This document shows, piece by piece, positions 26,337-31,068 of a DNA stretch of 64,000 nt. The DNA lies in assembly GCA_017744365.1 (NCBI GenBank), contig JAGIBL010000001.1:434001-498000 (forward strand), read 5' to 3'. Source of the stretch: Nocardioidaceae bacterium. Its GTDB lineage: Bacteria; Actinomycetota; Actinomycetes; Propionibacteriales; Nocardioidaceae. How positions within the stretch are numbered: position 1 is the first letter of the stretch; each line of letters opens with the position of its first letter. The notes beneath the pieces were generated by a model that was not told the origin of the DNA, made no database searches, and was given only the letters and a program-made list of their open reading frames with translations. The translations under genes and the position numbers were made by a program.

Positions 26337-27724
26337 TGATCCCGATGACGCTCGCCGAGATCGCCACCGTCGTCGGTGGTGAGACGACCGAGCCCGACGT
26401 GGTCGTCTCCGCTCCGGCGTTCCTGGACAGCCGGGAGCCCTTGCCCGGTGGGCTCTTCGTGGCCATCGCGGGTGAGCACGTGGACGGCCACGAGTTCGCC
26501 CAGGCGGCGGTGACGGGGGGCGCCGCGGCGGTGCTCGGCTCTCGCGCGACCGGGGTGCCGACCGTCGTGGTGGCCGACGCCCAGGCCGCCCTGCAGGCCC
26601 TGGCCCGGCACGTGCTGCGCCGGCTGCGCACGATCCATCCCGATCTCCAGGTGGTCGCGCTCACCGGCTCCCAGGGCAAGACCAGCACCAAGGACCTGAT
26701 CGCCGCGGTGCTCCAGCAGGCCGGACCGACCGTGGCGACGTACGGGTCCTTCAACAACGAGCTCGGTCTCCCGCTGACGGTGCTGCGCGCCGACCCGGAG
26801 ACCCGCTTCCTGGTGCTGGAGATGGGCGCGCGCGGCATCGGCCACATCGCCGAGCTCTGCGCGATCGCACCACCGGACGTGGCCCTGGTGCTCAACGTCG
26901 GCACCGCGCACCTCGGCGAGTTCGGCAGTCGTGAGGCGATCGCGAAGGCCAAGGGCGAGCTCGTCGAGGCGCTCGCCCCCGACGGCGTCGCGGTGCTCAA
27001 CCTGGACGACCCGCTGGTCGCGGCGATGTCGCCGCGGACCCGGGCGCCGGTGCGCACCTTCGGCTACGGCGTGGGCGCGGACGTGCGGCTGCACGACGTC
27101 GGCACCGACGAGCTCGGCCGGGTCCGGTTCGACCTGGCCCACCACAAGAAGCGCGCGCACGTGCGGATGCGGGTGCTCGGGGAGCACCAGGCGATCAACG
27201 CGGCCGCGGCCGCCGCGGCGGCGCTCCTGCTCGGCCTCGAGCTGGACGAGATCGCGCGTGCGCTGGAGGCGGTGCCGTCGCTGTCGAAGTGGCGGATGGA
27301 GCTGCACGAGCGCGCCGACGGGATGGTCGTGGTCAACGACGCCTACAACGCCAACCCGGACTCGACCGCCGCCGCGCTGCGCACGCTGGCCGGCATCGGC
27401 GCGCGCACCGGCCGGCCCACGGTCGCGGTGCTCGGGGTGATGCGCGAGCTCGGCGAGACCAGCGACGCCGAGCACATCCGCATCGGCGCTCTGGCCGCCG
27501 AGCTGGGCATCGGCAGGCTCGTGGTCGTGGGCGAGGACGCCCGCCCGATCGCCGACGGCTATCCCGGAGCCGCGTTCGCCGCGTCGGTGGACGATGCGGT
27601 CGCCGACGTGCGGAACAATGCAGACGGCACCGCGGTCGTCCTGGTCAAGGCGTCCCGGGCCGCGGGGCTCGAGCGAGTCGCGCACGCCTTGCTGGACGAG
27701 GAGTCGAAGGAGGAGGGGCCGTGA
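26336..27724 (+). CDS. murF: UDP-MurNAc-tripeptide D-Ala-D-Ala ligase MurF
   Basis: Adds D-Ala-D-Ala to complete the stem pentapeptide. The 462-residue protein has the ATP loop GSQGKTSTKDLIAAVLQ (about 110-126), FNNELGLPLTVL, LEMGARGIGHI and the C-terminal NDAYNANPDS motif typical of MurF. ATG 26336 shares a base with the murE stop; an ATG three codons later is possible. Its stop overlaps the mraY GTG. Confidence 0.95.
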   Translation: MIPMTLAEIATVVGGETTEPDVVVSAPAFLDSREPLPGGLFVAIAGEHVDGHEFAQAAVTGGAAAVLGSRATGVPTVVVADAQAALQALARHVLRRLRTIHPDLQVVALTGSQGKTSTKDLIAAVLQQAGPTVATYGSFNNELGLPLTVLRADPETRFLVLEMGARGIGHIAELCAIAPPDVALVLNVGTAHLGEFGSREAIAKAKGELVEALAPDGVAVLNLDDPLVAAMSPRTRAPVRTFGYGVGADVRLHDVGTDELGRVRFDLAHHKKRAHVRMRVLGEHQAINAAAAAAAALLLGLELDEIARALEAVPSLSKWRMELHERADGMVVVNDAYNANPDSTAAALRTLAGIGARTGRPTVAVLGVMRELGETSDAEHIRIGALAAELGIGRLVVVGEDARPIADGYPGAAFAASVDDAVADVRNNADGTAVVLVKASRAAGLERVAHALLDEESKEEGP

Positions 27725-28797
27725 GAGCGATCCTGCTCGCCGGCGGCCTGGCGCTGATCCTGACGATCATCGGCACCCGGGTGGCGATCAAGGTGTTCGC
27801 GGCCCGTGGCTACGGCCAGCTGATCCGCGACGACGGGCCGACCAGCCACCACACCAAGCGGGGCACCCCGACCATGGGCGGCCTGGTCATCGTGCTGGCC
27901 ACCGTGATCGCCTACTTCACGGCCAAGCTGATCACCGGCTCGGAGCCGTCGATGTCGACGCTGCTGCTGCTCGGCCTCTTCGTCGGCCTGGGCACGGTCG
28001 GCTTCCTCGACGACTTCATCAAGATCTACAAGCAGCGCAACCTCGGCCTGCGCAGCAAGGCGAAGTTCATCGGCCAGACCCTGGTGGCGGTGCTGTTCGG
28101 CTGGCTGGTGCTGTGGGACGTGGACCCGTTCACCGACCACCGCGGCCAGACCCCGGCCGGGCACGCGATCTCGTTCACCCGCGACCTGGACAAGATCGCG
28201 GTGCCGACGGTGCTGCTGGTGGTCTTCGTGGTGCTGCTCATCGCCGGCTTCTCCAACGCGGTCAACCTCACCGACGGCCTGGACGGTCTCGCCGCCGGCG
28301 CCTCGATGATGGTCTTCGGCGCGTACACGCTGGTGAACATCTGGCAGAACAACCAGTCCTGCGCGGTGAGCCCGGGCCCGGCTTGCTACGAGGTCCGCGA
28401 CCCGCTCGACCTGGCGGTGGTGTGCGCGGCGATCACCGGCGCCTGCTTCGGATTCCTCTGGTACAACGCCTCGCCCGCGCAGATCTTCATGGGCGACACC
28501 GGCTCGCTGGCGCTGGGCGGCGCCGTCGCCGGCATCGCGGTGCTGACTCGCACCGAGCTGCTGATGCTGCTCATCGGCGGGCTGTTCGTGCTGCAGACCG
28601 CGTCGGTGATCCTGCAGGTGGGGTACTTCAAGCTCACCAAGGGCAAGCGGCTGTTCCGGATGGCGCCGCTGCACCACCACTTCGAGCTGCTCGGCTGGGA
28701 GGAGATCACCGTGGTGATCCGGTTCTGGCTGATCGCCGCGGTCTTCGTGGCCGCCGGCCTGGGCATCTTCTACGCCGAGTGGGTGGCCGGGGCGTGA
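27721..28797 (+). CDS. mraY: Phospho-MurNAc-pentapeptide translocase MraY
   Basis: Makes lipid I from UDP-MurNAc-pentapeptide and undecaprenyl phosphate. The 358-residue, about ten-helix membrane protein has the family motifs HHTKRGTPTMGG, FLDDFIK, NLTDGLDGLA with its catalytic Asp, and FMGDTGSLALGG and HHHFELLGW near the end. GTG 27721 overlaps murF, and the stop overlaps the MurD-like gene. Confidence 0.96.
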   Translation: MRAILLAGGLALILTIIGTRVAIKVFAARGYGQLIRDDGPTSHHTKRGTPTMGGLVIVLATVIAYFTAKLITGSEPSMSTLLLLGLFVGLGTVGFLDDFIKIYKQRNLGLRSKAKFIGQTLVAVLFGWLVLWDVDPFTDHRGQTPAGHAISFTRDLDKIAVPTVLLVVFVVLLIAGFSNAVNLTDGLDGLAAGASMMVFGAYTLVNIWQNNQSCAVSPGPACYEVRDPLDLAVVCAAITGACFGFLWYNASPAQIFMGDTGSLALGGAVAGIAVLTRTELLMLLIGGLFVLQTASVILQVGYFKLTKGKRLFRMAPLHHHFELLGWEEITVVIRFWLIAAVFVAAGLGIFYAEWVAGA

Positions 28798-29708
28798 GCT
28801 CCTGGGAAGGCGTCCGGGTGACCGTGGTCGGTCTCACGCCGGCGGGCTTCGCCGCGGCCGACAACCTGATGCACCTCGGCGCCACCGTCACCCTGCTCGC
28901 CGAGGAGCCGGCCACCGGCGAGGACGAGGAGCGCGCCAAGCTGCTCGAGGTGCTCGGCGCCACCGTGCGCACCGGCCCGGGCAGCACCGCCGACCTGCCC
29001 GTGGGCACGGACGCGCTGGTGCTCGGCGAGGAGCACCCGCTGGCGGGTGCCGCGGCCGGGTTCGGGCTGCCGGTGTGGGGCGAGCTGGACCTGGCCTGGG
29101 AGCTGCGCTCCCGGGAATCCCCACCCTGGCTCGCGGTCGCCGGTGAGCGCGCGGGCCGGGTCGCGGACCACCTCGCCGCGATGCTGCGTGCCGGCGGGCA
29201 CCGCACGCTGACCTGTGGCACCGGCGGGCTGCCGCTGGTCGAGGCGGCGATGGACCCGACGCCGTACGGCGTGCTGGTGGCCGCGCTCGACCCGGCCCAG
29301 CTGCACCGCGCGGGCGGCTTCGCGGCGCACTCGGCCGCGGTGACCGAGGCGACCGACCCCGTGCTGGGCCGGGTCTACGAGGGCGTCGAGCACGCCTGCG
29401 TGTACCGGGTCGAGGACGCTGCCGCCGAGGACCTGGTCCGGGAGGCCGACGTGGTCGAGGGCGCCCGCGCGATCGGCGTCACCCTGGGCACCCCGGCCGT
29501 CGGCATGGTCGGGCTGGTCGACGACGTGCTGGCCGACCGGGCCTTCATCGCCGAGCGCCAGTCCAGTGCCGCCGAGCTCGGCACCCTGGCCGACCTGTCC
29601 GCGGACGAGCCCGCGCTGCTGGCCGACGCGCTCACCGCCGCCGCGCTCGCCCGCGCGTTCGGGGTGGAGCCGGTCGCGGTCCGGAACGGCCTGCGCACCC
29701 TTTCCTGA
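28794..29708 (+). CDS. Truncated, P-loop-less MurD homologue in the murD position
   Basis: A 304-residue protein where the operon normally carries murD (about 450-490 residues). The N-terminal Rossmann part (VTVVGLTPAGFAAADNLMHLGA) and a WGELDLAWE segment align with MurD domain 1. Where MurD has the ATP loop TGTNGKTT, this protein reads VAGERAGRVAD, so Gly, Lys and Thr are lost. The middle domain is much reduced, ending with a helix like MurD's NALAA (ADALTAAALARAFGV), and the entire C-terminal ligase domain is missing. No frame downstream supplies it. It cannot be an active ligase as written; it may be a pseudoenzyme or scaffold. GTG overlaps mraY. Confidence 0.75.
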   Translation: MSSWEGVRVTVVGLTPAGFAAADNLMHLGATVTLLAEEPATGEDEERAKLLEVLGATVRTGPGSTADLPVGTDALVLGEEHPLAGAAAGFGLPVWGELDLAWELRSRESPPWLAVAGERAGRVADHLAAMLRAGGHRTLTCGTGGLPLVEAAMDPTPYGVLVAALDPAQLHRAGGFAAHSAAVTEATDPVLGRVYEGVEHACVYRVEDAAAEDLVREADVVEGARAIGVTLGTPAVGMVGLVDDVLADRAFIAERQSSAAELGTLADLSADEPALLADALTAAALARAFGVEPVAVRNGLRTLS

Positions 29709-29744
29709 GAACCGGCACAACGCGCGCCGACACGCGCCGGATGT

Positions 29745-29763
29745 GCCCGGGTTCCTCCCGGGC
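29745..29763 (+). other. Hairpin between the MurD-like gene and ftsW
   Basis: GCCCGGG-TTCCT-CCCGGGC is a perfect 7-bp stem with a 5-nt loop. No T-run follows. It may partly terminate or stabilise the transcript; GAGGAGG for ftsW lies about 60 bp downstream. The 115-bp gap is the largest between mraY and ftsQ. Confidence 0.5.
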
Positions 29764-29823
29764 TCCGGCGAGACTTCTCCTGGAGGGGCGAGCCCGCGCC
29801 CGCGGCCGAGACGAGGAGGATGC

Positions 29824-31068
29824 GTGAGCGTCATCGCCCCGCCCCGGCAGTCCCAGGCCCTCCGCGGTGGCGGCCGGATCGCGGCGTTCAAGGAGCTGCT
29901 CGACCGCCCGCTCACGCCGTACTACCTGCTCCTCGGCAGCACCGGCCTGCTGCTCTCCATCGGTCTCGTGATGGTGCTGAGCGCGTCCAGCATCGACGCC
30001 TTCCACAAGTACGACAACAGCTACTACTGGGCGATCAAGCAGGCGATGTGGGTGCTGATCGCGCTGCCCTGCGCCTGGATCGCGACCCGGCTCCCGCTCA
30101 AGCTGCTGCGGTTCGCGGCCTGGCCGATGCTGGGCGTCTCGGTGCTGCTGCTGGCGCTGACCCAGACCGGGCTCGGCGTCGCCGTCAACGGCAACCAGAA
30201 CTGGCTGGGCCTCGGCCCGATCCAGATCCAGCCCTCGGAGATCGCGAAGTTCTCGATGGTGCTGTGGTGCGCCGACGTCTACGCGCGCAAGGACGCGCTG
30301 CTCGGGCGCTGGAAGCACCTGGCCATCCCGGTGCTGCCGGTCGCCGGCGTCATCACCGCGCTGGTGCTGGTCGGTGGCGACCTGGGCACGGCGCTGGTGC
30401 TGTTCGCGATCACCCTGGGGATGCTCTGGGTGGTCGGGGTGCCGGCCCGGATCTTCGTCGCGGTGGCCTCGCTGGTCTCGGTCGCCGCGCTCTACCTGGC
30501 CGCCAGCAGCCCGGAGCGACTGACCCGGATCACCTCGTTCGTGAACCCGTTCCAGGACTACCAGGGCTCCGGCTGGCAGGCCGGTCACGGCATCCTCGGG
30601 ATGGCCAGCGGCGGCCTGTTCGGCAAGGGCATCGGCGCCAGCCAGCAGAAGTGGGGCAACCTGCCCGAGGCGCACACCGACTTTATCTTCGCGGTGCTCG
30701 GCGAGGAGCTCGGCCTGGTCGGCACCCTGCTGGTGCTGGTGCTGTTCGGGGTGCTCGCGTACGCCGCGATCCGGGTGGCGATGCGCAGCGAGGACCTCTT
30801 CGTCCGCTACGCCACCGCCGGGATCGTGCTCTGGCTGATGGCGCACGTGATCATCAACATCGGCATGGTGCTCGCGCTGCTGCCGGTCATCGGCATCCCG
30901 CTTCCCCTGGTCTCCTATGGTGGATCCTCACTGGTACCCGAGCTCGTCGCGCTCGGGTTGGTGATCGGGTTCGCCCGCTCGGAGCCGTCCGCCGCCGGAG
31001 TGCTGCGGCGGCGCCGTCACGAGCGACGTGAGCTTCGAGCGGTGAACGCGACCGCGCGTCGCCGTTGA
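29824..31068 (+). CDS. ftsW: Septal peptidoglycan glycosyltransferase FtsW (SEDS)
   Basis: Polymerises lipid II at the septum with FtsI. The 414-residue, ten-helix SEDS protein has VMVLSASSIDA in TM1, GNQNWLGLGPIQIQPSEIAK, a LGTALVLF segment and the C-terminal SYGGSSLVPEL signature. The catalytic Asp lies in GGDLGTA. A basic C-terminal tail (RRRRHERRELRAV) may contact other divisome proteins. The GTG start follows GAGGAGG. The murG ATG lies 11 nt after its stop. Confidence 0.95.
   Translation: MSVIAPPRQSQALRGGGRIAAFKELLDRPLTPYYLLLGSTGLLLSIGLVMVLSASSIDAFHKYDNSYYWAIKQAMWVLIALPCAWIATRLPLKLLRFAAWPMLGVSVLLLALTQTGLGVAVNGNQNWLGLGPIQIQPSEIAKFSMVLWCADVYARKDALLGRWKHLAIPVLPVAGVITALVLVGGDLGTALVLFAITLGMLWVVGVPARIFVAVASLVSVAALYLAASSPERLTRITSFVNPFQDYQGSGWQAGHGILGMASGGLFGKGIGASQQKWGNLPEAHTDFIFAVLGEELGLVGTLLVLVLFGVLAYAAIRVAMRSEDLFVRYATAGIVLWLMAHVIINIGMVLALLPVIGIPLPLVSYGGSSLVPELVALGLVIGFARSEPSAAGVLRRRRHERRELRAVNATARRR

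Follow-up and report, generated by a model that had tools for sequence, protein, structure and literature searches.

A truncated, apparently non-catalytic MurD retained in the dcw cluster of Nocardioidaceae with a MurD2-MurL-type route

An alternative peptidoglycan pathway based on MurD2 and MurL was reportedly described by Feng in 2017. According to the relevant parts of PMC8788868, MurD2 ligates L-Glu and MurL then carries out the epimerisation, and organisms with this pair are without a D-Glu maker. The same parts give two markers of L-Glu use by MurD2, namely Arg at the position of E. coli Lys348 and Glu at that of E. coli Asp182. The pathway is attributed there to Xanthomonas and to rare actinobacteria; those named are Micromonospora, Actinoplanes, Verrucosispora and Salinispora, not Nocardioidaceae or Microbacteriaceae, and the fate of the dcw murD is not stated in the parts covered. 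A second relevant system comes from Streptomyces venezuelae, in which, as told in parts of PMC3781837, WhiA footprints GACAC upstream of ftsW and activates this gene, for which a specific promoter inside the dcw cluster was put forward by the authors; WhiB is also involved in ftsW activation in this species (PMC4850268, in part). Among the open-licence papers listed, none announced a MurD that was dead or truncated, and no Mur-ligase pseudoenzyme came up. The protein considered here resembles pseudoenzymes in general, as these are presented in parts of PMC10211241, in that the fold is kept and the catalytic motifs are lost.

The two-domain MurD and its presumed replacement

The gene in question occupies the murD slot of a dcw cluster lying in the window, by which is meant the whole stretch of 64,000 nucleotides analysed here, from a Nocardioidaceae bacterium (genome G000). 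From the letters alone, the original prediction had described it as a truncated MurD between mraY and ftsW, coupled to mraY at GTGA, deprived of its P-loop and of the whole C-terminal ligase domain, and accompanied by MurC, MurE and MurF with intact P-loops, and every part of this description was borne out. The GTG start of the gene and the stop of mraY do overlap as GTGA, and the frame ends at the hinge that precedes the C-terminal domain, with the ftsW start some 115 nt further on (Table 1). The TIGR01087 murD model matched residues 8-185 only, with 46 bits, and its curated cut-off of 211.95 was not reached, while a Pfam search gave nothing above cut-off. In place of the GTNGKT-type loop seen in 46 full-length relatives (with its Lys in all 46), the protein reads GERAGR, the carbamoyl-Lys stretch (DHLDWY...YAADK in relatives) and the SPG motif are also missing, and the neighbouring P-loops read GTQGKT in MurE, GSQGKT in MurF and GTHGKT in MurC. 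Descent from MurD is indicated by the dcw position and the two-domain fold, and identity to the matching part of family MurD proteins is 39-62%. The AlphaFold2 model was confident throughout (pLDDT 96.3, pTM 0.92), a confidence which is no proof that the dead form folds alone, since 46 of the 68 rows of the model's alignment are full-length MurD; the best Foldseek match was a MurD structure (TMq 0.84). Compared with the MurD ligase, the slot and the N-terminal and central folds are the same, but the C-terminal domain, the P-loop, the metal-site Lys and the DH His are not there, and the known ligase mechanism is not open to a protein predicted to consist of the first two MurD domains only.

Table 1. 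Features of the locus in the window and of the replacement pair on contig 2
Feature	Position	Strand	Details or basis
mraY, upstream neighbour, overlapping the pseudo-MurD start	27721..28797	+	
Pseudo-MurD, two-domain, catalytically dead (predicted), dcw murD slot	28794..29708	+	304 aa; alignment, AlphaFold2, Foldseek
N-terminal Rossmann-type domain, about residues 1-105	28794..29108	+	secondary structure of the model
Former P-loop, AGERAGR against TGTNGKT in relatives	29139..29159	+	alignment
Central domain, most protected stretch (residues 211-240, with ADVVEGARAIGVTLGTPAVGM)	29424..29513	+	windowed identity
Putative WhiA site CGACACGC	29728-29735	+	leftover of the MurD C-terminal coding region
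-10-like GAGACT, 34 nt after CGACACGC	29770-29775	+	candidate ftsW promoter 29728..29775
ftsW, downstream neighbour	29824..31068	+	
MurL homologue	G000:C2:15732-17057		
MurD-type ligase	G000:C2:17054-18289		

The search of the same genome for a full-length MurD that the prediction had proposed was successful, and its idea that MurD activity had moved elsewhere is supported. A second, full-length MurD-type ligase is encoded on another contig (239.7 bits, above cut-off; GTKGKST intact), and its start overlaps the stop of a MurL homologue. The latter scored 294 bits along positions 9-439 of NF041275, a MurL model named for Xanthomonadales whose curated cut-off of 700 bits was not reached; its assignment relies on the whole-length homology, on the adjoining MurD2-type gene and on the lack of any MurI match in a profile search of the window genome, in which 10 of 14 control genomes did match. 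As in the pathway of Xanthomonas and of rare actinobacteria (PMC8788868, in the parts cited above), the two genes are found side by side without a MurI match, and a MurD2-type gene adjoins MurL in 76 of 80 loci. The best D-amino-acid aminotransferase match reached 100 bits against a cut-off of 277, in a weak test that only 1 of the 14 controls passes, and a D-Glu source via this enzyme may consequently still be present. The L-Glu specificity of the G000 ligase beside MurL can only be inferred, because it has the Arg (GGYDR) but Asp, not Glu, at the Asp182 position; among the 76 ligase genes beside MurL, Arg is present in 72, and the second position is Glu in 15, Asp in 47 and neither by pattern in 14. 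Compared with the MurL of G000, that of G076 shows 68% identity and those of G054, G108 and G146 only 40-41%, which points either to more than one arrival of MurL or to an ancient divergence.

Distribution and repeated truncation

In a family sample of 341 genomes, inferred to be Nocardioidaceae, the MurL profile matched 31, 28 of them strongly and 3 weakly. MurI was above cut-off in none of the 28 strong-MurL genomes; partial matches to the MurI model, of 21-29 bits and far under the cut-off, were seen in six of them, from a set of 23 MurI-negative genomes. Within a 149-genome sample, 4 of the 144 genomes without strong MurL also gave no MurI match (G016, G017, G045 and G092), all of them drafts with 62-97% completeness. 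The three weak-MurL genomes all had MurI above cut-off and a full-length MurD. Specifically, in G302 (L257), G254 (L258) and G325 a distant MurL homologue (E ~1e-31) is found alongside MurI and a full-length MurD, possibly as a paralogue that does something else.

The dcw slot of the 28 strong-MurL genomes holds a MurD whose C-terminal domain was lost near the hinge in 24 cases and a full-length one in 4. When the C-terminal domain alone was searched for in the 341 genomes, matches were clear (E < 1e-30) in 307, intermediate in 2 (G215, G351), absent in 8 (G017, G026, G065, G116, G200, G209, G346, G354) and weak only in 24 (E 1e-5 to 1e-11), these being exactly the 24 truncated ones. A clear C-terminal domain was present in 303 of the 313 genomes without strong MurL, and the remaining 10 are drafts of poor quality (incomplete, fragmented or contaminated), none of them shown to be truncated. 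The association between MurL and loss of the domain yields a Fisher p of ~1e-32 without these 10 unclear drafts and of 6e-25 with all 10 counted as lost, in both cases uncorrected for kinship.

Two further observations were made among the MurL-positive genomes of the family. One clade (G237, G268, G271 and G320, at L268, L264, L265 and L267) has MurL, no MurI match and a full-length MurD with intact motifs, a combination for which a recent switch, or a MurD now using another substrate, is suggested. In addition, a second mraY, 60-62% identical to that of the window, occurs in seven genomes (G272, G268, G316, G271, G244, G323 and G332), and at four of its loci (L285-L288, in G272, G268, G316 and G271) no other query dcw gene lies within 1.5 kb. 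The notion of a dead form present family-wide, raised by matches of the 304-aa protein in 145 of 149 genomes, was rejected, as 47 of 50 extracted genes were full length; the query matched so many genomes because it aligns to the first two thirds of full-length genes.

An mraY tree of 74 genomes required nine changes, at least six of them on well-supported branches. These changes were taken for truncations, since the regain of a lost domain is improbable, which suggests at least six separate truncations of the dcw MurD in the family. The tree, however, comes from a quick search on a single gene, fewer events would be needed if dcw stretches had been transferred, and transfer of a whole stretch could restore a lost domain. 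In independent pairs, MurL and truncation changed the same way in five, in opposite ways in none and without difference in one (sign test, 0.0625).

A wider named set was drawn from the best 80 of at least 564 confirmed MurL matches; 50 were taken, 49 were searched for mraY, and 40 loci in 39 MurL-positive genomes were read. The 40 slots comprised 7 with truncated MurD, 30 empty, 3 without a simple, readable mraY-ftsW slot (L192, L201 and L227, counted as neither) and none with a full MurD. Four of the truncated loci (L189, L190, L191 and L198) correspond to G291, G319, G225 and G199, with which they share contig number and coordinates, and are Nocardioidaceae already counted above. The only new ones belong to Microbacteriaceae, truncated in 3 of 3 read, and these proteins end variously near the hinge, about 20 residues short of it in L196 and about 30 past it in L204, which retains GTVGKTTT. 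MurI, checked in 14 of the 49 genomes, was positive in 2: G192 (Gordonia alkaliphila; L151, L199) and G197 (a Bifidobacteriaceae MAG; L156) have a MurL homologue together with MurI above cut-off, and they may represent the use of both D-Glu routes or a transition state. The dcw murD slot of Gordonia alkaliphila is empty. Because murD is gone from 30 of the 40 MurL-positive slots of the wider set, whatever role the retained protein plays should be dispensable there.

Erosion of the active site and selection on the remainder

The truncated proteins were compared in an alignment of 22 truncated and 46 full-length rows, the former without G338, whose murD and murF frames are both broken (single contig, 70% complete), and with G146 represented by G199, identical in the retained region. 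In the full-length rows, 109 columns are conserved to at least 95%. For 24 of these columns the conserved residue is missing from most truncated rows, and for the other 85 at least half of the truncated rows retain it. The lost columns are mostly those of the P-loop, the GNVG Asn, the ELSS Glu and Ser, the DH His and the metal-site Lys, with the PAPH His among the others. The metal-site Lys, a column assigned by alignment to solved MurD, is found in 0 of 22 truncated rows, the P-loop Lys in 2 and the DH His in 3, compared to 46 of 46 full-length rows in each case. In E. coli MurD the metal-site Lys is the carbamoylated Lys198 (PMC4816537, in part). The two exceptions, G291 and G244, have lost the C-terminal domain and the metal-site Lys and retain the P-loop Lys, which suggests that the C-terminal domain goes first. 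Identity at the former P-loop is 0.38 in truncated against 0.84 in full-length rows. The 15-residue windows 216-230 and 221-235, by comparison, show 0.83 and 0.79 in truncated against 0.77 and 0.73 in full-length rows, a small rise not to be pressed, as the full-length rows are broader. The mean pairwise identity of the N-terminal domain is 0.63 (22 truncated) against 0.66 (46 full-length).

The prediction had also held that this copy was maintained and not decaying, and had proposed examining selection on synonymous versus other changes. Pairwise GY94-type fits, performed on relatives and not on strains of the window's species, gave low omega values for five close pairs in which both members are without P-loop: 0.055 for G257-G259, 0.057 for G257-G278, 0.062 for G316-G272, 0.034 for G316-G323 and 0.030 for G236-G260, with 2ΔlnL against omega = 1 of 205, 188, 139, 229 and 263, respectively. 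Seven dead pairs were fitted in all; the two set aside are G236-G054, which was at the boundary (t 26, omega 0.002), and G076-G340, which approached saturation (t 3.0, omega 0.020). The boundary was also reached when the N-domain of G257-G259 and that of G076-G340 were fitted. YN00 returned a ratio for two dead pairs only, 0.042 in both, and was undefined for the others. Values were about the same in working MurD (0.035, 0.023 and 0.062 in three full-length pairs, over their first 330 codons), and the dead pairs lie above the mraY of the same pairs (0.055 against 0.034, 0.062 against 0.029 and 0.030 against 0.013). Protein divergence relative to mraY was 1.25-2.97 in nine dead pairs and 1.23-6.01 in seven full-length ones. 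Moreover, the reading frame is intact in 23 of 24 truncated genes, the exception being G338, a poor assembly, and GC3 is 0.90-0.99 in 21 of 22 and 0.70 in one, with a gene-like codon-position pattern. The claim of maintenance is hence upheld: because omega is well below 1 among these relatives and nearly all frames are intact despite an eroded active site, the dcw gene is, judged by its sequence, a maintained pseudoenzyme rather than debris.

The best surviving alternative, a relic on its way out, would require that murD became useless after the arrival of MurL, lost its end and is still wearing away. It can appeal to the many empty slots of the wider set, to the eroded active site, to G291 and G244, which with their P-loop Lys look as if they were younger, and to the broken copy of G338, but it is an unlikely explanation, given that the other frames are open, that omega is low even where both members of a pair are without P-loop, that codon usage is still that of a gene, and that divergence relative to mraY in dead pairs falls in the range of full-length ones. 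A maintained non-catalytic function in the MurL background is, by comparison, very likely in our judgement, and the protein would owe its retention to a task that is not ligation and that probably is not substrate binding either.

This last point bears on the possibility of a non-catalytic ligand sensor that would regulate flux while still binding UDP-MurNAc-Ala, as had been suggested originally, or some other nucleotide. The N-terminal fold and the glycine-rich start are kept, and so are the SPG Ser and the SPG Pro, each in 16 of 22 truncated rows. However, the SPG Gly is found in 9 of 22 and the GNVG Asn and DH His in 3 of 22 each, columns which are presumably in contact with UDP-MurNAc-Ala, and the window protein has no SPG at all. 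A sensor is thus rather improbable, and binding of UDP-MurNAc-Ala was not supported.

As for the nature of the maintained function, for which the original prediction had proposed a divisome or regulatory role, the best 50 of 1808 Foldseek matches were all Mur-type ligases and gave no hint of a new one. MurG and MreB bind Thermotoga MurD, MurE and MurF (work cited in PMC6420597, in part), and for this reason a scaffold is the most economical guess, to be held quite tentatively and by analogy.

A candidate ftsW promoter within murD codons and a proposed course of events

Although the C-terminal domain is gone, a short piece of its coding region appears to persist as DNA. The motif RH(A/G)P is present in the C-terminal domain of 53 of 54 full-length MurD, and all 53 encode it by CGACACGC, which contains the WhiA site GACAC and, in 53 of 53, the rare Arg codon CGA, used for only 156 of the 1945 Arg codons of those genes. 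Exactly 34 nt on, a NANNNT hexamer follows in 53 of 53 (GAGACT in 33, GACACT in 9, GAGGAT in 6), compared to 0-9 of 53 at ten control offsets, although these genes are related and are not 53 independent cases. Of 18 truncated loci, 15 have CGACACGC after the stop and before ftsW, its chance being about 1% per 200 nt by simple shuffles, and a -10-like hexamer, by patterns chosen after viewing the sequences, follows after 34-35 nt in 13. The element is also found in the window, with the 34 nt spacing, and in G054, and it is absent between the truncated murD and ftsW of G076 and G108. Of 17 of the 30 empty slots, 8 belong to actinomycetes, of which 6 have the element, and none of the other 9 slots has it, with L197, filed as an unverified Bacillus, counted as an actinomycete by its mraY match. 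In the clade of G259, G278 and G257 (L278, L280 and L282) the promoter-like element takes the form GGACACGC, and GAGGATGG follows after about 13 nt, versus 34-35 nt elsewhere.

A WhiA gene is present in the window genome (350 bits), and the GACAC upstream of ftsW is conserved as DNA. This suggests a candidate WhiA-dependent ftsW promoter inside murD codons, similar to the WhiA/WhiB ftsW promoter of Streptomyces venezuelae in having GACAC upstream of ftsW inside dcw (PMC3781837 and PMC4850268, both in part). Unlike what is described in that species, the putative site is here fixed in MurD C-terminal codons and outlives the domain; murD is not mentioned in the main text of either article. What is new here is the location of the putative site within murD codons and its apparent persistence after those codons are lost. 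The short C-terminal remnants persist in a manner that the embedded candidate promoter can explain, and the first two domains are not so explained.

Nor are the latter well accounted for as a translational spacer, with a frame kept open only for the passage of ribosomes from mraY to ftsW without polarity. Essential genes do lie downstream, and a candidate start codon shares bases with the stop of mraY in 15 of 18 truncated loci and in the window; a spacer, however, requires an open frame and not a given sequence, whereas selection on the amino acids is strong, many lineages delete the gene outright, and ftsW has a candidate promoter of its own, so we regard this explanation as very improbable. 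Finally, an assembly error, or a split enzyme with its C-terminal half encoded elsewhere, can be practically dismissed: nothing was found in its favour beyond the weak C-domain matches of the 24 truncated genomes, taken as cross-matches to MurD2, the boundary is similar in the 24 genomes, the metal-site Lys is lost from the very half that is retained, a full ligase is present elsewhere in the genome, and a frameshift or sequencing error hiding the domain is very unlikely because there is no room for it before ftsW and 23 further MurL-positive family genomes lack it.

These observations could be integrated in a model in which a lineage would first acquire the MurD2-MurL route, ligating L-Glu to UDP-MurNAc-Ala and then epimerising it to D-Glu, and would lose MurI, leaving the dcw MurD unneeded as a ligase. 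Its C-terminal domain would then be lost near the interdomain hinge, and the residues for ATP, metal and substrate would erode, while the two remaining domains, translated from the mraY-ftsW junction, would be selected as a folded non-catalytic protein. This protein might serve as a structural partner in a cytoplasmic Mur/MraY/MurG/FtsW assembly, with candidate contact surfaces around residues 91-105 and 211-262, and the C-terminal coding piece would persist as DNA through the embedded candidate WhiA-dependent ftsW promoter. Replacement, repeated truncation, erosion mostly of the active site and purifying selection are the steps supported by the genomic comparisons; the explanation in full, structural partner and embedded promoter included, is considered reasonably likely as worded.

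The survey adds genomes with MurL and without MurI from two families, Nocardioidaceae and Microbacteriaceae, that are not named in the parts of PMC8788868 covered, and points to a candidate regulatory site written in MurD codons that becomes visible through the loss of the codons around it. MurD is an old antibacterial target that has been studied mostly as a ligase. A broader reading, possible although somewhat short of being favoured, is that MurD of actinobacteria also does non-catalytic work in the division and cell-wall assembly, separable from the ligase, and that in these families the MurD2-MurL route lets selection repeatedly carve out the two-domain form. If true, the two-domain MurD would be a natural separation-of-function experiment exposing a hidden job, and with several natural lines that lost the ligase and kept the remainder, the Mur scaffold idea could be put to a direct test.
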